In this document: positions 21,223 through 60,500 of the stretch, piece after piece
Position numbering within the stretch: position 1 is the stretch's first letter
Layout of the letters: each line of letters begins with the position of its first letter
DNA from: Salminus brasiliensis
Taxonomy: Eukaryota > Chordata > Actinopteri > Characiformes > Bryconidae
DNA length: 64,000 bases
Direction: 5' to 3'
NCBI RefSeq assembly: GCF_030463535.1
Contig: NC_132894.1
Span: 28,974,625 to 29,038,624 of the forward strand
The notes under the pieces: model-generated
The model's input: only the letters and a program-made list of their open reading frames with translations
The model's database searches: none
What the model was told of the DNA's origin: nothing
Position numbers and translations under genes: made by a program

Positions 21223-23721
21223 TCATGAGCCGAGGTTGCTCATGGAGAGGTCCTTTGTTGATTGCTGGTCCTCACGATTGGATTTCAAGGTTATGGTTAA
21301 AAACCACAGGAACATCAAGACACCTGGAGTATGCAACACATAGGACAATTTATTTTAAATTTCTTCCCATGTATGCTTTTAACTACAGCCAACATTAAAA
21401 CTAACGGTGCTACATGGTTCTTTGAGCAATGACGTGGACTTGATTCCATAGAGAGCTATGTTTGTAAGAGAGATTCATTTGGTAAAGAACTTTTACATCA
21501 GCAAAGACCTTTAATCTTTAGACCTTTAAGAGATTCTTCACTCTCTCATTCTCATGCTCTGTGGAACCAAAAGTAATTCTTCCATGGCCAAAGTTATTCA
21601 AATCTGAATCTGGACCTTGAATCAAGTTTCCAGTCCTGGATTTCATTCTCGCTGAAAGTTAAGTGAACAGTTAATGTAACTGATTGGCCACATAGTGTCA
21701 CACCTGCTATGGATTACAAAGTGCAGGATCTGAACCCAGATTTGAAGACCGCTGTTCTATGGCATTGCTCAAAGAAACATTTTTAGCACCTTAATTAAAT
21801 TATTAATTAATTCATTTAGATTTTTATGAATATTGTTTGTCAAATATTTCCTTTTTTCCCCCTATTTGGTGCTGCCAATTAACCCACCCGTTTGTAGCCC
21901 CCCCTAGCACTGGGAGGGATCCCAACACTAAGAGGGTAAGGGCTTAACACAGGTCTCCCCCGATACATTTGACGCCAGCCACTGCCTCTTTTTAAGAGGT
22001 TTTCTTTTTTCTTTTTTGACCGCAGAGTCATTCACCAAGAAACCTTAGTGGGAAGCATATTCGAGATCATCCAACAACCAATGTGTCTATGGCCAAGGTG
22101 TGATGATAAGTTTTCATCTCTTGTTGTTATATTGATATACGTTAGCATTCCGGACCCAGAGCTAAACTACAGAAATACATTCCAGAAGCCCAACATGTCT
22201 TAGCGGAAGGTGAACATTGTGTGAATGAGATCTTCCACCAACCTTTTGCTGTAAAATTAAGCTTAGGCTATTGCCTCTATGAACCAACACTTACCTTGAA
22301 AGCCATTGAGTATGGTGAAGAGGTAAATTCCTGGTAGACTGATAGACTGTGGTCCATGTGTGCTGAATGCGAGCCCCCAAGGAAGCCCTAAAACGCAGCT
22401 AAGTCCCAGGACAGTGACCCAGTCCTTCCATATCCTCCTCACTCTATCTCCAGCCTGGACGCTCCGTACTCTCAGCTGCCGCATCTTCACCAGCATCACT
22501 GCCAGGATAGCTATGTTGAAGAGCAGCACCAACCCCAGATAACCATTCACTGTTATGTATCTCACGGTTTTAGTAGTGACCCAGCAGCTGCAGGTTGGAG
22601 AAGAAAAGCAGATGTGGTCATTGTGGACATAACACAAACAGAGATGAGAGCAGTTCCAATGTGTGTCCAATCTTATCCAACCAAGCAGGGGCACATCTGA
22701 TTTGGCTTGTTTAACTCGTTGTTCTAAAAGCCTATAAGCAGTTGAGAAGGTAGGCTTCTGCTTGTTTGGAGTGAAAACCCTGAAGCAACACTAGCTTTTA
22801 GTGGATAAGATTGGATAACTTTGGATCAGGGACAAAGGCATGTTTTGGAACTGTTGGATGGGGCTTACAGGTCCATGGCTACTGTGGTATTGCTGGCACC
22901 TTCCATTAGGGTGAACCTTCCATGTGCACCAGCTATTCCGCAGATTGTTACTATAAGTGTAGGAACACCTGCAGCAAAGCAAAAACGAATGAAATTTCGT
23001 GACCCTATTCTTCATGAAACAAAATAAAGGAAAATTATGGTTAATATGGTCCATCAAAGTCGTATACTAAGATAGGCTGGTTTTTACCATGAAAGCAGGA
23101 ACACAAACCTGTATATGCTTGACAGAGAGGTTTGGACTTTTATTAACCCAAATAAAATACCTATTTGTGATAATATGTAATATAATGTAATTCCTTTGCG
23201 TTTAAACTTTCGCACCCTATGTATATTCTTGCATGGTTACTCCTGCAACAGATTTCATTGTCCACTGATGGTTTGGGATTTGAGAGAGAATTTGCAGGCT
23301 TGGTGATGAATTTTCGTGCCTTATGTATCTTTTTTGTCATCTTTCTCAGTCTAAATCATTTTAGTTAATATTTACCATATGAGTGTCTCTGGCATTAGCC
23401 ATTCTAGCAGCTAGCAACACACAAAATATAAGATATTACCCTTTGTCAACTCACCCCAGCCCACCAAGCTCAGTTTGAGTAGGTATCTCCTGATGTAGAT
23501 GTTAAAGACCCGCACTAGCAGCAGGTACAAGTGGAAGCCTTCAATAGCTGTCCAGGTGAAAGTGACCTGCAGGGCCCAGTGCAGCATAATTCCCAGGGAC
23601 TTGCAGACTGCATCATTTTCTGGAGACCAAAAGGTACTAGTCAGGAAGAAGAGGTGCAGTAGAAACAGCGAGCCTGTAAGCTGTAAATGGATGACGACAG
23701 AGTGTTCTGTCTTTAAAGTCC

Positions 23722-33495: not shown

Positions 33496-43933
<10,438 letters not shown>

Positions 43934-46935: not shown

Positions 46936-48782
46936 TTACATTTCCTGGGCTTCTCAGCATGTTGATTAGACATTAACTAACACAGTGTCAGCTACATGTA
47001 CCGAGATTTGTATATATTGTTAAAGGCCTTTGCATATTGCAAGCACCCATTCAGCTGTCAACTGTCAACAGGCCAGCCATCTATCTGATAAAGAAGGCAT
47101 TAGCCTCTGGAGCTGGGGCTATGGGTTTGAGTCCTACCTGGAAGAGCATTAGGGCATGGCTACTGCTCATTATTGCATGTTTCTTAGAAAGAATCACTGA
47201 TAATTGAGCATCACAGTTTTAAATTAATTCATTAAACCATCTCATTTGGCACTAACAGGGTAAAGCTTTCATACAGGCTGCACCAGTAGTGCCTCCCAGA
47301 AGCAACACTAAAGCTATACCTCATTTCTATCATATAATATAGTTCAACACAGCAGACAACAGTGTCATTATACACACAGTACAGTGACCAAAACCAAAAA
47401 ATGCAAATATCCCTGGTACTAAACCTACGATGGATCTCTGTTAGATGATTTGGCTGTGAGACAAAGGGAAGCACACAAGCATGTTTTGCTCAAACCTGTT
47501 TAACTGCATTAAAAACGTGGTATTTCACCCAGCCATACACTTCTGCAAGAGGCTACAACAAAAATGTGTGTCAGACCTCTGAACTAAATTCCAATCAAAA
47601 AGAAATACCCTGAACTTCCACATTAGAGTGAACACTTTATTTTACAGCACAGATCAAAACTCTGAAACTGTACAAATCTTACAGTAAATAACAGTGTAGT
47701 AAGTACTATCAGACCCACTGCACCAGTGTTGCTTACAGCCATGGAATCATTCACAGCCAGAGCGCCCTCTATTGGTTAAGGGAAAAGCTGGACAGTGAAC
47801 GAAAATAATCAAATGTAGTAATTGTATTTTAGAAGTTTTTGTATTTAAATGCACTTTTATCATCAGTCATTTCTAAAAATGTATTTTCTCATTGATATTT
47901 GGTTTATATGTGGAGCTAGAAATGTATAAACCAGGTCGGATAGACGCTTCTTTTCCATCATAAATAAAGCTATAAATAACGAAATTCCGTTATTCACATT
48001 GAATAATCTAGGGTGCTCTAATGGATAAGGTACAATTTGTACTTAAACGTACTGAAACACACAGCACAGCTGACAGAGAGAGAAACACACGAGTGCTGTA
48101 TCAGAAAACTAAGGGTCTGAGGGTCCTAAGCATGTTCTTCAGTTCTTATTCCACTGCTTTCAGTACTGACTCCAGCGCCTCCACCATGAAGCTAAAGGGT
48201 GGTAAAGGGTGATGGTTTTAGAGTGTTAGTTTATCAGTGAAAGGAAGCGTTCACTGTAGTCTAAAAGTTTAAGGTATTTTATAATATAATTTTATTCGAA
48301 TTGCAATTACAATCATAATTCAGTTGTTAGATCTTACACACCCCTGTTTCGTGGAGGTGTGGGAGTGCAGACCACACTGTATCAAACTGTAAAATACAAC
48401 ATTTTAACATAGTTTAACAGGCTTAGTACCAGTGATATTTGCATTACTCTTTGGGTTCGTGTACTGTGTCTAAGAAAGAAAGGCCTGCATGAACACCCTC
48501 AGCTCCCGTCACACGAACAACACGTCAGTGAGGCTCCTCAGGTGGGGCTCCAAGACACAGTACCCAGCTTTAGAGGCTGATGCAGATCAAATTAGACCAC
48601 TGAGCCACACAAACCAGCATCTTCCAAGTCTACAGATTTACTGCTGACACAGTTATTCTGTTGCCTTATTTATTAGAACACTGGACAACACAGCACACAC
48701 AGAAATTATTCTCAAACCTTTGGTCATATTGCTACTTACAGCAGAAATGTAAAATCTTCAATATCCGGGTGTAATCCATGTT

Positions 48783-49064
48783 ACTGGGAGGCTGAGGCTG
48801 GTGGAGTGCGTGAGCTCAGGGTTTCTGGGCTGTGGTGGTCTGTGCTGATCGGGTGTCCGATCGGGTGTCCGAAGTCCAGTATCGATATGGTGGTCCTGAG
48901 GGAGCTCTGGACTAGCAGGTCGTCTAAGGAGGGGTGCACCGGCCCAGGCCGGAAACGGAGCAGGTCAAAACCCCCGTGCTGATCAGTAGTGGGGTCGCAC
49001 CTGTGAGCGGACTCTGCAGGGCAGCCTGAGCAATACAGTGGGACCCAGTCTTTTACTCTGTAGC
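48783..49064. repeat. Left arm of a ~280-bp inverted repeat
   Basis: Read in reverse complement it matches 51120-51393 almost base for base over most of its length, including gagctcagggtttctgggct and aacggagcaggtcaaaaccc. The two arms are about 2.05 kb apart. A third, more diverged copy at 49480-49650 has the orientation of the right arm. Confidence 0.9.
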
Positions 49065-49793
49065 TACACGGGAGAGCTGCATCTGATCATCTTGTCATTT
49101 GTCATTTGTGTGCGCTTAACTCAACTGATCTGAGGAAAAAAGGGGAAAAGAGTAAATATTAAATAAAAGTCAAACACAACTTGAACCAGAATGGAGCACA
49201 AAGTAAGATGAGCTAAAATGATGTATTTAGAGAGAATTGCTGGAGCTTTAAAATGAGCTAGAGTACATTAAACAAGACTTTAATCTTAATCTGGATCTGG
49301 AAATATCAGTAACATCATCTTTTATTGTCTTAAAAACAGAAAAGTTTATTCTTCATGAACTTTGGTGAAAGATTAATGTGAATCTGTGTGCACTTCTACA
49401 AACACAACTTTAACAATGGATCAACAACTGTTGATAATCAGTGAATTTCCTGATAAAACATCTGCAGTCTGTGTCCCACTGTCTCCCTCAGGCTGCACTA
49501 CAGCGTCCTTTCTGAGGTGCGATCCCACTAATGACCAGCATGGGGGGCCCTGACCTGCTCCGTTTCTGGCCTGGGTGGGTTCACCCCTACTTAGACAACC
49601 GGATAGTCCGGAGCACCCTCAGAACCACCATGTTCATACTGAACTGATCTGTATGAGGAGCTATACACGTATGAACTAGGCCATAAAGACACTACTTTTC
49701 AATTACGAATAACAGAAACACACGAAAGAACTAGTCAGACTGAATAATCTGGTCAACAGCACCTTCACAGACTTAGAAGACAGGGCTTCATGT

Positions 49794-49866
49794 GGTCCAG
49801 TGGCCTAATGGATAAGACCTCAGCCTCCAGAGCTTGGGCTTGTGGGTTCGAGTCCCACCTGGGTCG
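49794..49866 (+). tRNA. tRNA-Arg-like sequence with CCA anticodon; probable pseudogene
   Basis: 73 bases fold as a cloverleaf. The acceptor GGTCCAG pairs with CTGGGTC (two G-U), the T stem GTGGG/CCCAC is intact, the A box is TGGCCTAATGG and the B box GGTTCGAGTCC. The body resembles tRNA-Arg(CCT), but the anticodon loop CTCCAGA reads CCA (Trp). The D stem has one mismatch and the anticodon stem another. There is no T-run terminator nearby. Confidence 0.55.
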
Positions 49867-50849
49867 CTCTGAAAAGCACACTGGTTAAGAGAAGCTGCGA
49901 GTTGTTGTCACGTTCTAGATAAAATTCCCTTTACATTTCAGTCATTTAATGTAAATCATTATAGATTGAAGTCTTTCTGCACTTCGTAAACTACTGTCCA
50001 AAACATACTGTTATAATAATAATATAGCTCATAATGTAACTGTTTATGATTAGACTGGAAGTGGAATTAAAAAAAGCTTACCTGTAGTTGAGCTCACCTG
50101 CTTCTTTACACATTCCACTGCTTCCGAGACTCCAGTTATGAGAAATGACAATATGATTATGATATAACCCAGAAATATAGAATATAAGACATATTCTGAT
50201 TCATTTTCATATGTAATTTAACACCCCTAAACAGCGCAACACTCATTTTCAACACCACGAGCTGAAGCACTCATTTACAAGCTACTGCAGCACTAGGATA
50301 TGCTAGTATCATTTAAACCCCCCAAAAAGACCTCAAGGGGGCTCAAACCACCAACAAATACTGAGAGATAATCAGAAGTGGCGAGTATGGAAGTATAAAT
50401 ACTTCATTACAGTACTTAAGTAGATTTTTGACGTATCTGTACTTGAGTATTTCTGTCACTTAATACTTAATACTTTTTACTTCTACTCCCTACATTTCAC
50501 AAAAATTAATGGCCCACGCTGCTGTTAGTGAATCTGAATCTGTGAAAGCTTCGGTTCGTGTGAAAAATGAAAGAGCTGAGCTTCGGTTCTGTAATAATGT
50601 GATGAACCGCACCGACAGATAACCTCCAACTGACACACTGGTGTAGCCTAGACCCTCTGCCCCCATCACACCCGATTTATTGGTTTTGCCCTCCTACGTG
50701 CTGAAGCAGATATCTGAATAAAGAGCTATAAAAGTAAGAACCAGGTCGTGAAGACGCTTCTTTTCAATCATAAATAACAGAAACCACTATTCACACTGAA
50801 TAATCTAGTGAACAGCACACCCACAGACTTAGCAGAGAGGGCTTAGTGT

Positions 50850-50922
50850 GGCCCAGTGGCCTAATGGGTAAGGCATCAGCCTCTTGAGATGGGAATTTTA
50901 GGTTCAAGTCCCACCTGGGCCA
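50850..50922 (+). pseudogene. tRNA-Arg-like pseudogene with CTT anticodon loop
   Basis: A 73-base relative of the copy at 49794. The acceptor GGCCCAG/CTGGGCC is perfect and the D arm GCC/GGC intact. The T stem (TTAGG versus CCCAC) and anticodon stem are mismatched. The loop CTCTTGA would place CTT as anticodon. Confidence 0.6.
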
Positions 50923-51119
50923 AAAAAGGGTGAGCTTTCCTTTCTTAAACTTGTTAATTATGGTGGCATAGTAGCCAATCCCATCAAATCACTGACATTT
51001 CTCAGGACTGATCACCTGTAAATGAAGCAATTACAGCTCCGTATCTCATCTTATTTTGGACCTCATGTTAACAGGGTACAGTGTTCACACATGCTGCACT
51101 AACCGAGCCTCCCAGAAGC

Positions 51120-51393
51120 TACAGAGTAAAAGACTGGGTCCCACTGTATCGCTCAGGCTGCCCTGCAGAGCCCGCTCACAGGTGCGACCCCACTACTGAT
51201 CAGCACGGGGGTTTTGACCTGCTCCGTTTCCGGCCTGGGCCGGTGCACCCCTCCTTAGACGACCTGCTAGTCCAGAGCTCCCTCAGGACCACCATATCGA
51301 TACTGAACTTAGTCAGGACACCCGATCAGCACAGATCACCACAGCCCAGAAACCCTGAGCTCACGCGCTCCACCAGCCTCAGCCTCCCAGACA
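51120..51393. repeat. Right arm of the ~280-bp inverted repeat
   Basis: Inverted partner of 48783-49064 (ggtgcgaccccactactgat, cctcaggaccaccatatcga). Open frames across it are not conserved in the other copies. Confidence 0.9.
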
Positions 51394-52345
51394 CGTGGAT
51401 TATGGTTGTCGTACCATGCACATTTATTTCTGATTATTTTAAAATCAATTAAAATCATGAGTTAAAATCAATGATTAATGGAAATAAAATCAGCAGATTA
51501 ATCAATAATGAAAATAATCATTATCTGGAAACAAAATATTTAAAAAGTATTTTAAAATATTTATTATTTAAAAGTGAGACGTTTCACATACACTTTCATT
51601 AATCAATATTTTTTTATTTTATTTTTAATTTAAGTTTTATAATTTGTTTTAATATTTTTTTGTTCAGCAAAAAAATCTTTTAATTTCTTTAAGGGTCGAC
51701 GTATAATCATAAATATAATAATTAAAACATCAACAACAAGAGGAAGAATTGTGAAATACTGTATACTGTGATACCGTAAAATCGTGATATTTTGTGAGGA
51801 GATTAGCATACCTTAAAAATCTCACAGCTAAATCCAATAAGTAACTAAAGCTGTATCTGAAAATAAAAATAAAATAAATAAAAAATAAATTCAGTCATTA
51901 AAAAAAACCCTCGTCTTAAATTCTTTAAGGATTTAGATAAATACAGGAATAACGGGTTTAAACGTCCTAATGTAGCTGTTCAATAAAGCTGTGGTAATAT
52001 GAAAGACGCAGTGACTACACATTACCACTAGAGGGAAGCACGACCTTACAAACTGCAGCTTACTGATGGGGTGATTATCCTGATGTGGGATATTTCTCGC
52101 ACTGGGGTGCGTCCCCTTTGAAGATTACTCCACCCTAATCTAAAAATTGACTTTTTAGAGACGTCATGTGATTTTGATGACACGTCTTGACAGCTCGCCT
52201 TTTATTTTATTCAGGAAGACCCACATCAAATTAAATGTAGGTGTCGCACAATTGGCAGTGAGAGTGTTTAGATATCTCTCAACACAAATAACATGTACAT
52301 CTAGTGAACAGCACCTTCACAGACTTAAAACAGATAGGTCTGTGT

Positions 52346-52791
52346 GGCCCAGTGGCCTGATGGATAAGATATCAGCCACCAGAGCTGGGAATTACACACA
52401 GTAAAATACGCACAGTATAAACTGCGCATGTGATGTCTGAAGGTCAACTGACATCAGTTGCAGTGCTGGTTGCTTGTCTGTCCATTCTTGATTGGTTCTC
52501 GCTGCATTTACATTTGGATATGCTAAACCAAATAAAGATGAAAAAAGAAGAGGAAATATCTATAAAAAATAACATTAATATCCTGCAAGTTCCCTTCAAA
52601 GAGGTTTAGTAACAGAGTACTTCTCCCTTAGAAAGGTTTTATGGCATTTTCTTTCAATGCTGATAAGATATCTTTGATGCTTTATGACGACTTAACTATC
52701 CCCCTGCATTCACCACAAGGTATTACAGAGGGTGGTACACTGTACACCATACTAAAGCTGGGAATTGTGGGTTTAAATCCAACTTGGGTTG
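52346..52791 (+). pseudogene. tRNA-Arg-like pseudogene split by a 362-bp insertion
   Basis: The 5' half (GGCCCAGTGGCCTGATGGAT ...) runs to 52393 and the 3' half (gtgggtttaaatccaacttg) resumes at 52767. The halves are separated by 52394-52755, with AGCTGGGAATT repeated on both sides (52383-52393 and 52756-52766). Confidence 0.8.
52394..52755. pseudogene. Transposed copy of the receptor C terminal-exon region
   Basis: Matches 54350-54713. The part at 52604-52753 is identical to 54564-54713 by eye. The part matching the last receptor C exon is clearly diverged: several substitutions, a missing ctgaccgca block, and a damaged acceptor (TTTTTTCATC where the gene has CCCCGCAG). Intron sequence is included, so it is a DNA-level copy and not a spliced retrocopy. 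Confidence 0.85.
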
Positions 52792-53129
52792 CTGTGGCAG
52801 GTCCACTGGGATTAAGACAGTGGCTGCAGGTTGTTGTACTTCATAAACCATTGGTGCCCAAAACTGTTTGTGCAGTTCATGAATATTCATGTGGCTCTCT
52901 CCTCCAGCACATAGGATGGACTAGCAGGTAGTCTGTGGAGGGGTGATTTGTAGATATCCATTTACATTATTACATTACATTATTATTACAGACTAATAGA
53001 GCCACGCCATCCACTTCCTGCCATTTTTCTACTGATATTTTGTCACTTCCTGGCTCAGAAGGAAGTTAAGAAACCTTTTAAACTTTCAATGCCACAAGGT
53101 GGCGCTAAACATTAATCACCAAGTCAAAT

Positions 53130-53940: not shown

Positions 53941-54397
53941 GGTTTTGGGCCACTGTTTGCAAACATCGAAAAGGCACCACTATACCACACCACCAGTGAC
54001 CAGTGACCCATATTATTTGGGTCGTGAGTCATGTTCAGCACAGCAGTGATAGTGATGTAGGTATCAGGTATGGTTACACTGCTGGTGTTTCTGAACACTC
54101 TGTACAGTTTTGTTTAAGTAGTTGATACGTTCTGTAGCAACAGATGCCCTAGAGTATAATACCTGTATACCTAAAGTGCACCTGTATGGTAGGTGTTCCA
54201 GATTAAATGGTCAAATATGGTAGGTTAACAGAGTAAGGATTTCAGGTGAAGACTGGGCAAAGAAGCACAAAAGATCTAGTGCTTAGTAACAAGATATAGG
54301 CAACCGCAAACAAGGTACAACCAAGTGCTAGATGCTAGAAAGAGCAAAAAAACACACAGTATAAACTGCGCATGTGATGTCTGAAGGTCAACTGACA

Positions 54398-57300
54398 TCA
54401 GCTGACCGCAGTTGCAGTGCTGGTTGCATGTCTATCCGTACTTGATAGGCTCTGGCGGCGTTTACATTTGGATATGCAAAACCACAGGAAGATGAAAAAC
54501 CCTGCGGGGAAAAAAAGAAGAGGAAATATCTGTAAATAAATAACATTAATATCCTGCCAAAAGGTTTAGTAACAGAGTACTTCTCCCTTAGAAAGGTTTT
54601 ATGGCATTTTCTTTCAATGCTGATAAGATATCTTTGATGCTTTATGACGACTTAACTATCCCCCTGCATTCACCACAAGGTATTACAGAGGGTGGTACAC
54701 TGTACACCATACTTAAAAAGTGCAATATAATGCATGTATCCAGTACAATGACAGCTGCCTTAAAGTCCTTTTATGTCTCTACCAGCTTTGTGCATCTAGA
54801 GACTAAGATTTTTGCCCAATCTTCTTTACAAACTAACTCAAGCTCAGCCAGGTTGGATGAAGAGCGTCTGTGAACAGCAATTCTCTTTGATCTATGTCAT
54901 TCCACTGTGGCTCTGGCTGTATGTTTAGGGTCATTATAATGCTAGGGGTGAATCTCTTTCCCAATTTCAAGTCTTTTGGAACCTCCAACAGATTTTCTTC
55001 CAGGATTGCCCTGTATATAGCTCTATCCATCTTCCCATCAACTCTGTCCAGCTTCCCTGTCCCTGCTGAAGAAAAGCATCCCTACAGCATGATGCTGCCA
55101 CCATGCTGTTTCACAGTGAGGATGGTGTGTTTAGGGTGATGAACAGAGTTACTGTTTACCACCATACATAATGCTTTGCATTAAGGCCAAAAAGTTCAAC
55201 TCTGGTCTCATCTGACCACAGAACCTTCTTCCACATGTTTACTGTGTCTCCTATATGGCTTGTGGCAAACTGCAAACTGCACTTCTTATGTCTTTCTTTC
55301 AACAATGGTTTTCTTTTCTTATGTCACATATTTCAGATTTGATTACAATTGTGAGAACTATGTATCATTTTCATTCCACTTCATAATTATGTGCTACTTT
55401 TGTTGGTCTATCACTTAAAATCTCAATAAAATACATTTAAGTTTGAGGTTGTAAGCTGAGAAAATGTGAAAATGTTCAATAATATAATGAATAATTTGCA
55501 GAACCTAGCATAGCTTAAAACATTGTAATTACAGTTGCAGTCAAAATTATTCAATCCCCACTGCAAGTCAGGTTTATTAGCAAAATAAACAAACTATATA
55601 TATATGTATATATCATTTTAAGAAAGTACTAGTTTTAGTACAAAAAAGAACAGCATTACTCAAAATATTCAAAAAAGACAAGTAAACAAATGTTATTTTG
55701 GACTGTAAAACTTGCTCTAGCGTTCCTCTGGGAAGTGACTTGAATTTTACATTGTTGAATTTATTTTGTAAGATTGTTAAATGTGTTGCACTTTATTTCT
55801 TTTACGTAAATTATTTCATTTCTTGTGGTGGAAATGTTATGTTTGACTGTTAAGCTGTTAGCACTAAAGAATTTTCTGTTACAGAATAGTGCCCTTACTG
55901 CATTCTATGTGTTTAAGAAAAGATGATTAAAGAAAATACTGCAATATAAAATAATTCTTTTTTTCATTATTTTGGAGAAATTCTTTTCATTTCTAATACA
56001 CTCACATTAGAGTAATCTAAAAATTAGTTGTTAGATGAATCGACTAATCGAAAAAGAATTATTAGATTAATCACAAAAAAAAAGAATCATTAGGTGCAGC
56101 CCTACAATTCAAGTCACTAATTTTACTAATTACTGATTATGTAAAGCTGCTATACAAATAAATTTGACTTGACTTGACTTGACTACTTTTTGGTTTGCTG
56201 CTGCAACCACCTCCTTCAAATCCCTCCAAAGATTTTTAATGGTGTTCAGTCAGGTGACATTGACAAACACTCCAGAATCTTCCTGGAGTTCTTCTGAAAC
56301 CAAGCCTCGGTGGACTTTGAGTCTGGTGGACTGAGACACAGTCCTGTTGGAAGGTCCAATGACACCCAAGCTTCAGCTTCCTCACAGAAGGCATGAAAGA
56401 CTGGCATTAGCCAGTCCACATTTTTGATGTTTTATCTGAAGCACACCTGACACAAATAATGAAGCCATTGATGTGAGCTCTAAAAAGGGATTCTATTCAG
56501 GGGGCTGAATTATCCTGATTCTGCATTCTGTGTTGGATTTGGAAAGAGGAATTGCTCTTGTTTGATTGGTTTATTGCATACTGCTGGAAGTTTGTACTTG
56601 TATTTTGCTAATACACCTAATTTGTAATGGGTGTTGAATAATTCTGATTGCAACTGTATTATCTAACCAGATAGTGTTGCTGGATAGTCCTATCACCCAC
56701 CTCCTTTTTCTGGCTAACCCAACGTCAGGAGTAAATGGAAGTGATTCTAAAAACACTACAAGCTAACGCTAGACTGAGAGGGTAATCTCCACCTGATTGT
56801 CCAGGCTTCCAGGCTTAAAAAGCTAGTGGGCTGGGTGTAAAATTGCCAAATATGGGGGCATTAATAAAATCATATGTAGAATTTTTTGTTAAATGAAGAA
56901 ACAACATTGTTTGAGGTTTACGGTTTGTTTATGGTATTAAACTCCTTTATACAACTATGCCAAGAAAACCCCTTTAGTCTTACGTAGGGCACCCTAAATC
57001 TGCACCACTGCCTTTGTATGATCACACTTTAGCCTATCGTCCTGTTTTGCATGTGATTTTGTATGTTGTCTTGAATACAGCCACGTCATCATTCCAGTTG
57101 AATAAGATGGCTCAGAAAAGTGATGTAATATTCTTAAAATAAAGCACTGTATCACCAAACAAACAATGTGCTTTTGCTCACCCTGCAGTGGGTTTAATAT
57201 GCAGAAGAGGTAGAGGAAGACTGTGATAACTGTGTTATAAGCGAAGAACCCCACACTCCAGCAGATGCCTAGTAGACAGGTGATGCCTAGAACTGTGCAC

Positions 57301-57474
57301 ATGCTCTTGGCCCAAGGTTTCATTTGTTGGCCTGGGGGCACAGAGTGCCGGCAGAAGATAGTCCGTGCAAGAACCACCAACAAGCTCAAGTTAAAGGCAA
57401 AAACCACACAGAAGAAGCCAAGAACTGTGATGTTTCGTACAACGTCATTGGAGATGTGGCATCTTTATGTGGTA

Positions 57475-57521
<47 letters not shown>

Positions 57522-60500
57522 TGTCAATAAAAGCAGTGACAGTTTCTCCCCCAATGTTCTCCTCAATTTATTCATATATATTTAATTATGATTATGACAT
57601 GGTTTTACTATGTTTAAAGGAGAGTTGCTGTAGGCTTACCCTTGATAGGATGTGCTGTTCATTAAAGATGAGCCCACATTCAGATAAATGTTTCGGTCAA
57701 TGATGAAGATCAAAGTCACAACAACAGCAGGGACACCTAAATAAAATATGATAGTATTAATACGAACAATTTAATAGCTATGACGAAATAAATAGCGCCT
57801 GGATTCATCTAACTTGTTTTAAAGTCACAATATAAATGCAAAAGTTTGGGCACCCTTGGTCACAATTTCCATCACTTTGAACTGTTAAGTGAGTGGCTGA
57901 TGAACTGATCTCCAAAAGGCGTGAAGTTAAAGAGGAAACATTCTCTTCAACATTTTAAGAAGATCAGTGTTTTATTTGTCCAGTTTTAGAGTAAAATGCA
58001 CGTTTTGTCCGAGCCCACCCCGCCCCGCCCCATAAACAAGATAACATTGGATATTCTTTAAATAATGAAGGCCTACAACTGTAGTCTAATCAAAATGAAT
58101 TAAATAGGCTATAATCTGGTGCAAATGCTTAGGTTGCTGCAAACGAATAACACTATTGCACACATTCATCTTGCCTTAAGGTTACAGCATAAGATAAAAA
58201 ATAAACTACAAATAAAGCAACATTTAGCAGGCTACACACAGCACTTCACATCAAGAGTAACGCTGACAAGTGGAGGAGCTCATGTGTGCACAATGTGTAG
58301 GCCAGTGGTGCGTGAGTATAACAGTCTTGTGCAACCTGTGCAATCTTTAAGATCACAGTGTAATTAGTTACTTTGCTATATAGTCATTATCACCCCATAT
58401 ATGTTTTTATATGTTAAAAATAGCATTAAAAAACAATAGTCCCATGTCACACACCATTTGCTTGAGGCTGACCCGACAGGGCCCGAGGAAAAGGAAAAGC
58501 AAGGTGATACAAATTTCAATCCTTTTTTAATGAGTGATACTAACGAAGCAGGAGAAAAGTATTTTCAGGTAGCCATTTGGGCTGTAATTAAGAAAAGTCA
58601 GTTAACAAGATGGACAAGGTAGAAGTCAAGTTGAGGTCTGGAAGACCAAGAAGGTTTTCAAGAGAGCTGCTTGTAGGATTGCTGAAAAGACAAAGGCCTT
58701 CAGGAATATTTAGCAAACTCTGGAGTGATGCTGCCCTGACACCAGCATAAATATGACCTTCATGAAAGAAGATTCATCAGGAGAAAAACATTTCTGTGTC
58801 CTCCCCACAGCATTTAACATCAGGTTTTTTAAAAGGAACATCTAAACAAGCCTGATGCATTTTGGAAACAAGTTGTGTGGTCTGATGATGTTAAAATAGG
58901 ACCTGATGTTAAGCAGTGAGGATGTTAAATGCTGTGGGGAGGAGAAGCAGAAATGGTTTTCTCCTGATGAATCTTCTTTCATGAAGGTCATATTTATGCT
59001 GGTGTCAGGGCAGCATCACTAACAGGGAACATTTTCCTTCTTCTTCAGCAGGATATTAATCCTAAACATACCTTAAAAACACAATGGGAAATCTCATTGG
59101 GGAGCTAGCTAATAAAACTTTCCATGATCCTCACAGCCCCCAACCTAGACATCATGAGAAATCTGCAGATACACCTCATAAAAGTAAAAGATTGAAAAAT
59201 CCCCAAAGTAGAATTAAATCAGTGTTTAGAATCTAGGATACCTACAAAAGGGGGAGTGTTACCTAAGAACTAACTGGAATTAGGTCATATTCATTTCATG
59301 AGATGATGTTAAACTCACCCCAGCCCACCAGGCTCAGTTTGAGTACATATCTCCTGATGTGGATGTTGAAGACCCGCACCAACAGCAAGTAGAGGTGGAA
59401 GCCTTCAATAGCCATCCAGGTGAAAGTAGCCAGCAGAAAATAATGAAGTAGGACTGCCACGTAGATGCAAAAGACTTTATTTTTAATGTAATTTTGAACT
59501 ATAAAATGTAAATTTAAAAATATAAGAGCCACAGCCAGACAAATATGGATCCGCTGAGACTGATCTGCTCCTGCACGCCTTTGAGAAAAAAAAGAGATGG
59601 TCAGGGCATGGTGGTTTTAATGTAATGCTAACTTTGTCTGCCTTTAAAGTTTACCTTTTCAAATGACTGTCAGATGCACAGAAGCGTGGAAGTTGCTGCT
59701 CTATGCAAGAAGTAGCTCTATAGAGAACATGAGTAGAAGCCGCTTACCATTTTATGAAGTAGAGGAGAACGGTGATCACCAGAAACAGCAAAGACAGACT
59801 GCATCCAGTTAGAGAGATGTAGGTCAAATTTAGTTGATCTTCCTTGGAAACATTATTGCCTGGTACCTGAAAATAATATTGGGGAATGTTTAACATGTGT
59901 ATCACCGTTGCAAGTACTGCAATTTCTGTGTGTGAATACATGTGTGTGTTTGCAAGTGTATGTGCATGAAATGAATGAGATTGTACCATCAATATTGCAA
60001 AATAGGTTAGGTGATTACATAAGCAGTGAACCCAGTCTTCTTCTATACTCCTGATTGTGGAACAACCAGTGTCTTCAAATTCTGTTAGACAGAAAATAAA
60101 CTTAAAATGGAATTTTTTAAATAACAAAATCGAATAATATTTTTATAGCAAGATGCCACGGTGCAAGCCGTTTCTCTCCCATGCTTTTAAGAGATAATCT
60201 TGCCACAAATGGGAGATACTAGATGTGCGGCTGCAGGGGAGCTACCAGGGATTTTGGGCCCCATGAAAAGATATCACACTGGGCCCCACAATTCTAACAA
60301 TTCTGCCAAAATACTCAATTAATCCATTTTTAGGGCCCCTTTCAGTCACTGGCTCTTCATCCTAACCCCCATACCATGGCCATGTGTGGTTGATTGGATA
60401 TTTCGCTTGATTTAGTAAAGAAGTGTTTTAAATAAGCCCTAGTTTGTCAGACTGTATGTAGATAAATAATGAGGAAACATCCTCGAACATTGTTGGTGGA

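Follow-up and report, generated by a model that had tools for sequence, protein, structure and literature searches.

A 362-bp copy of the terminal-exon region of an ADGRG-like receptor gene inside a probable decayed tRNA gene copy of Salminus brasiliensis: a likely repair-mediated duplication with clustered divergence

Target-primed retrotransposition of transcripts, which generates processed pseudogenes, inserts transcribed sequence between short target-site duplications (TSD). Repair-mediated duplications, as defined in vertebrates by Pace, Sen, Batzer and Feschotte (2009; PMC2671141), are insertions in repeats whose sequence has one other place in the genome. The part of that publication used here reports 824 human cases with a donor within 5 kb (mean length 162 bp, maximum 619 bp), 80 zebrafish cases, 20 human chimeric cases, and two complete exons duplicated in this way. 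None of the 39 proximal duplications examined there has a poly(A)/T tract, against 17 of the 29 others, and a TSD is found in 6 of the 39; breakpoint signatures include microhomology of 2–9 nt, filler, deletion, or TSD of 4–21 nt. In the published pipeline, transposable elements serve as hosts and as the means of detection (PMC2671141). Concerning the later exchange between nearby copies, the L/M opsins of gibbons are described as undergoing intron-biased gene conversion with purifying selection on exons, in the section of that study on which we draw (PMC3213168).

We analyzed a window of 64,000 nucleotides of the Salminus brasiliensis genome (contig NC_132894.1, positions 28,974,625 to 29,038,624), whose features are collected in Table 1. 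An earlier note, made from the sequence of this window, had described a 362-bp copy of the 3' end of a gene called receptor C, intron sequence included. Self-BLAST of the window and alignment bear this out: 52403-52756 matches 54347-54717 on the same strand with 86.1% identity over 382 columns (E 2.7e-104). Source and copy are 1.6 kb apart on the same chromosome, and intron, exon, and 3' UTR sequence are all present in the copy. The source had been placed at 54350-54713, which is correct as to the 3' end of receptor C but not as to the limits of the homologous span. The reported lack of a poly(A) tail and of inverted ends is confirmed as well, since no run of five A or T touches either insert end in the junction sequences and the repeat tool found no inverted repeat linking the two ends. 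When the source or the copy was used as query against the 1.066-Gb genome, each returned two matches, i.e., the source and the copy, in a search whose tool skips very common words and whose match count cannot prove rarity in general. Either exon alone, with E up to 10, again gave only these two places.

Table 1. Features of the insertion, of its source, and of the related tRNA-like copies (positions in the window)
Feature	Position	Strand	Basis
5' part of the putative host, a probable decayed tRNA gene copy (nearest tRNA-Arg)	52343..52393	+	joined-flank matches, ARAGORN on best outside places
3' part of the putative host tRNA gene copy	52767..52789	+	joined-flank matches, ARAGORN
TSD copy 1 (as read here), AGCTGGGAATT	52383..52393	+	window word search, genome search with joined flanks
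TSD copy 2 (as read here), AGCTGGGAATT	52756..52766	+	window word search, genome search with joined flanks
Inserted 362-bp copy of the receptor C terminal-exon region	52394..52755	- (gene-strand orientation)	self-BLAST, alignment
Divergent block in the copy, with 14 substitutions and all internal indels	52458..52601	-	alignment, permutations
61-bp island (13 of the 14 substitutions)	52474..52534	-	alignment, permutations
Source segment in receptor C: last-intron end, terminal exon, and first part of the 3' UTR	54347..54717	-	self-BLAST, genome search
Last coding exon of receptor C; reads GFFIFLWFCISKCKRRQSLSSTDRHATSTATAVS, then stop, when its split first codon is included	54398..54501	-	translation, phase
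Receptor C exon before the terminal one, over its aligned part; C-terminal portion of 7tm_2, LFCILNPLQ/G at its end (slash, exon end)	57182..57461	-	domain match, phase fits terminal exon
Neighboring tRNA-like copy, uninterrupted, paralogous empty site	49794..49867	+	window comparison, ARAGORN
Neighboring tRNA-like copy, uninterrupted, paralogous empty site	50849..50923	+	window comparison, ARAGORN

The window contains the word AGCTGGGAATT at 52383 and 52756 and at no other place, and its reverse complement nowhere. The two perfect copies directly frame 52394-52755, in agreement with the 11-bp direct repeat previously noticed around the insert. When the two flanks were joined and searched in the genome, the left half of this locus covered positions 1-95 of the query and the right half positions 85-199, with an overlap of exactly 11 bases. 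This search scored 40 of 178 first-look candidates, and two of the 40 are the halves of this locus; positions 85-95 are crossed without interruption in all 38 others, including the window neighbors at 49747 and 50803, though many of the 38 come from a single tRNA array on contig C14 and are not independent. Because these 38 of 38 scored matches run uninterrupted through the 11-mer, we read it as a target-site duplication relative to paralogous empty sites. The same count leads us to reject a duplication of the 11-mer already existing in the host family, the very case that the earlier note had proposed to look for against its own claim. If the insertion were old enough for the observed divergence, two unchanged 11-bp repeats would have only a modest probability, about 8% (reckoned by hand with 11% over 22 sites). 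At the left junction, AATTACACACAGTA is immediately followed by AAATACGCACAGTA, and together they form a 14-bp near-tandem repeat (86%) that could be slippage or filler. Microhomology at the junctions, judged by eye, is 1-2 nt at best and cannot be told from chance.

The host is most likely a decayed copy of a tRNA-Arg gene, since its matches cover the tRNA body and ARAGORN, applied to the two best joined-flank places outside the window (L027 and L028), gave tRNA-Arg(ccg) for both. Against the tRNA-Arg name, this program called no tRNA in the joined host itself, and for the neighbors at 49794 and 50849 it gives Trp(cca) and Lys(ctt), which we read as changed anticodons. The tRNA body alone (query 44-48 to 118) is covered by 34 of the 38 other scored matches, most of them in arrays on contigs C13 and C14, and a SINE as host was replaced by a tRNA gene copy on this ground and on that of the two tRNA-Arg(ccg) calls. 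Hence, from the "tRNA-like repeat" of the earlier note, the tRNA likeness is retained, while "repeat" gives way to a decayed tRNA gene copy clustered with SRP RNA copies. Full-length matches to the metazoan SRP (7SL) RNA lie at 48764-49054 (+) and 51128-51419 (-), interleaved with the tRNA-like copies; a partial match under the gathering score lies at 49532-49645 (-), and a 29-bp fragment at 52917-52945 is identical at 26 of 29 positions. The best 26 of 12,637 genome candidates that were scored for 7SL are all on the same contig, at 12.90-12.93 and 13.22-13.25 Mb, with higher scores. Because these best places sit elsewhere and score higher, the SRP/tRNA cluster of the window appears to be an older, outlying cluster of Pol III genes.

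Since only two copies were found, 1.6 kb apart, with no poly(A), a retained intron, and a short TSD, we consider it highly probable that the insertion arose as a repair-mediated duplication, a judgment that bears on the insertion event and leaves out the conversion discussed below. Likewise, the 38 uninterrupted sites, the 11-base overlap, and the self-BLAST support the earlier proposal that a templated insertion duplicated its target site and took genomic DNA from a place about 2 kb distant. Within what the cited part of PMC2671141 describes, the locus resembles the class by its single donor less than 5 kb away and more than 50 bp apart, by its length under the published maximum, by insert ends free of a poly(A)/T tract of at least 5 bp, and by a TSD inside the published range, with possible filler or slippage at the left end. 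It also interrupts a repeat copy, whose uninterrupted form is seen here in 38 of 38 scored matches, and members of the class may carry whole exons, as this one does. By contrast, the host here is a tRNA gene copy where the published hosts are annotated transposable elements, the uninterrupted sites used for comparison are paralogous, and the divergence is confined to an exon block, a pattern not seen in the portion of PMC2671141 considered and one that calls for a second process. A staggered double-strand break of about 11 nt would have opened the decayed tRNA gene copy, and a broken end would have invaded or captured the terminal-exon region of receptor C, about 2 kb off. About 360 bp would then have been copied through synthesis-dependent strand annealing or a related template-switch pathway, and the gap closed by end joining, fill-in of the staggered ends yielding the 11-bp direct repeat. 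Afterwards, the copied exon would have degenerated as a pseudo-exon, whereas the non-coding sequence on either side would have been kept identical between source and copy, most likely by ectopic gene conversion. Such a history would make this locus a clear case in which break repair copied an exon from nearby together with its splice-site region, one way by which genes could gain spare exons. Two-copy pairs of at least 50 bp within 10 kb were also surveyed over 264 kb (the window plus 60 kb to its left and 140 kb to its right): among six such local pairs, only at this locus does the flanking direct repeat exceed 6 bp, and in two others it measures 6 bp.

Other origins of the insertion have to be weighed against break repair. 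The LINE machinery could have retrotransposed an unspliced or intron-retaining receptor transcript, devoid of poly(A), into the tRNA gene copy; the 11-bp TSD and the insertion of transcribed sequence would fit, both features being shared with processed pseudogenes, but here the intron is kept, the tail is missing, the 5' end lies within the intron, and the donor is only 1.6 kb off, whereas landing so close to the template is not expected from this machinery. Moreover, the distribution of poly(A)/T tracts in the cited part of PMC2671141 (0/39 proximal duplications versus 17/29 others) argues in the same direction. We regard this origin as quite unlikely. A TSD of 11 bp is also inside the range known for some transposons, and the segment could be a mobile element (a non-autonomous transposon or an exapted one) from which the terminal exon of receptor C was built. 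However, a family of mobile units would, we expect, have been picked up by the genome search, which yielded only two matches in 1.066 Gb (very common words being skipped), the insert ends share no inverted repeat, and the terminal exon has the look of ordinary receptor sequence because the terminal exons of receptors A, B, and C of the window have the codons TTC CTG TGG in common. A multicopy mobile unit is unlikely, a mobile-unit origin of the exon is rejected by copy number for this genome and within the sensitivity of the search, and the mobile-element reading as a whole is hardly credible. The idea, raised in the earlier note, that the terminal exon of receptor C lies inside a mobile unit was therefore not borne out by the BLAST of the source segment that it had called for, which was to reveal many copies and returned only source and copy.

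From its sequence, receptor C can be assigned to the ADGRG-like adhesion GPCRs, on the minus strand. A later 7tm_2 part is found at 56994-57464, an earlier part at 59296-59616, and a partial GPS motif at 59744-60142; for the TM2-4 exon, the nearest solved structures are adhesion GPCRs G6 and G2, then G5, G4, G3, and G1. The exon ending at 57182 joins in phase with the exon 54501-54398. Between this gene and its copy, the divergence is strongly clustered. After trimming of the ends (3 ungapped columns on one side and 12 on the other, which held four junction mismatches), 14 mismatches remain in 330 ungapped columns, 13 of them within 61 bp of the coding exon, where divergence reaches 21%. This clustering was attained in 0 of 20,000 permutations, and identity runs of at least 150 and at least 62 columns occurred together in 8e-5 of them; these permutations assume independent columns and count the five internal gaps of the block as four events, the 1- and 10-bp gaps, a few bases apart, being taken as one. 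All the internal indels fall in 52458-52601, where the copy lacks 10, 16, and 1 bp and has 11 extra bp in two adjacent gaps. Outside this 144-bp block, 152 bp on the intron side and 47 bp on the 3'-UTR side are identical (0% divergence), and four more mismatches (52754, 52410, 52407, and 52394) and a 6-bp gap are located near the junctions. The figure of (144/345)^18 is only descriptive because the block limits were picked after the data had been seen. In the source, the block corresponds to 54402-54561: it takes in the coding sequence of the terminal exon as far as the stop codon, together with some 60 bp in which the splice acceptor lies.

By codon reading, 10 or 11 of the 13 exon substitutions are nonsynonymous (one depends on order), against 78% expected under neutrality, and bases are altered in the copy where receptors A, B, and C share TTC CTG TGG. 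The splice acceptor is lost from the copy through the 16-bp deletion. With exon changes that match neutrality and without its acceptor, the copy has the appearance of a decaying pseudo-exon. Since neutral decay would be expected to strike the flanks equally, either conversion between the two copies homogenized the flanks or a different template supplied the block. Our best, though not proven, reading is ectopic gene conversion of the flanks, with selection on the exon perhaps acting as a filter: in permutations on the trimmed columns of this one pair, the identity tracts exceed what is expected from the overall divergence. As in the gibbon L/M opsins (PMC3213168, in the section cited), nearby copies would be homogenized in their non-coding parts while the coding part stays diverged; both copies work there, whereas here one is a 362-bp fragment that lost its acceptor, and conversion is deduced from a single pair. 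The more specific proposal, that copy and live exon kept exchanging by gene conversion while selection purged every exchange touching the working part, is possible but tentative. If it were true, the pseudo-exon would trace, about 2 kb off, the functional footprint of the receptor exon, and small repair fragments could go on exchanging sequence with their parent gene, so that the identity between donor and copy could not simply date such events.

Other explanations of the block are less favored. The source or the copy exon might have been converted from a third, diverged paralogue, or the insert might be a chimera of two templates; receptors A and C do show a converted-looking exon part (102/114 versus 81/149), and chimeric repair duplications are known (the 20 human cases of PMC2671141, in the part used). 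Yet the genome search with E up to 10 returned no third DNA match to either exon, and the best other among 30 matches to the protein of the receptor C TM2-4 exon is 52% identical, on which a close paralogue of receptor C was rejected as donor; such a donor would need to be lost, unassembled, or missed, and we find this rather unlikely. The change cluster could also have been made at the birth of the insertion by an error-prone polymerase: two deletions lie between short repeats (a T run and CTG), as polymerase slippage gives, and the left end, with its 14-bp near-tandem repeat, looks re-copied. But 21% over 61 bp stands against an error of about 1.2% deduced for short insertions made at hotspots of meiotic breaks (PMC7615360, in the portion relied on), a synthesis too accurate for this, and the 152 and 47 bp beyond the block are without change. 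No local reverse-complement template explains the island either, and a switch to such a template within about 1 kb was rejected, no tested segment beating the direct alignment by two or more. A polymerase origin thus appears unlikely, to a somewhat greater degree than a third donor. In the copied exon (52447-52559, minus strand), the frame stays open, and the 16-bp deletion brings an AG lying upstream into phase with the exon that comes before it in the receptor gene. The copy could accordingly be proposed as a putative working alternative last exon of receptor C, the in-phase translation from this AG, DISSSFFIFIWFSISK... up to a stop, giving an open 37-residue tail. Against this, neutrality would produce the same mix of substitutions (78% nonsynonymous expected), the chance of no stop in 13 changes is 0.65, and a matching frame is a one-in-three chance. 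The open frame and the in-phase AG are probably due to chance, and a working exon is very improbable.

Gene conversion does seem active in the receptor cluster. Between receptors A and C, about 36 kb apart, the last 114 columns of the TM2-4 exon (23450-23563 versus 59314-59427) are identical at 102 of 114 positions (89% DNA), versus 81 of 149 (54%) in the rest of this exon. This suggests a partial-exon gene conversion between the two genes, and constraint on that part of the domain may account for some of the likeness. For the same part, A and B share 82/114 positions and B and C 78/113, with a smaller contrast with the rest of the exon. An open frame with a DDE_3 transposase domain lies at 35982-36326 (-), between exons of receptor B, and an inverted pair of 100 bp, 96% identical (58724-58821 versus 58921-59020), is located between exons of receptor C.
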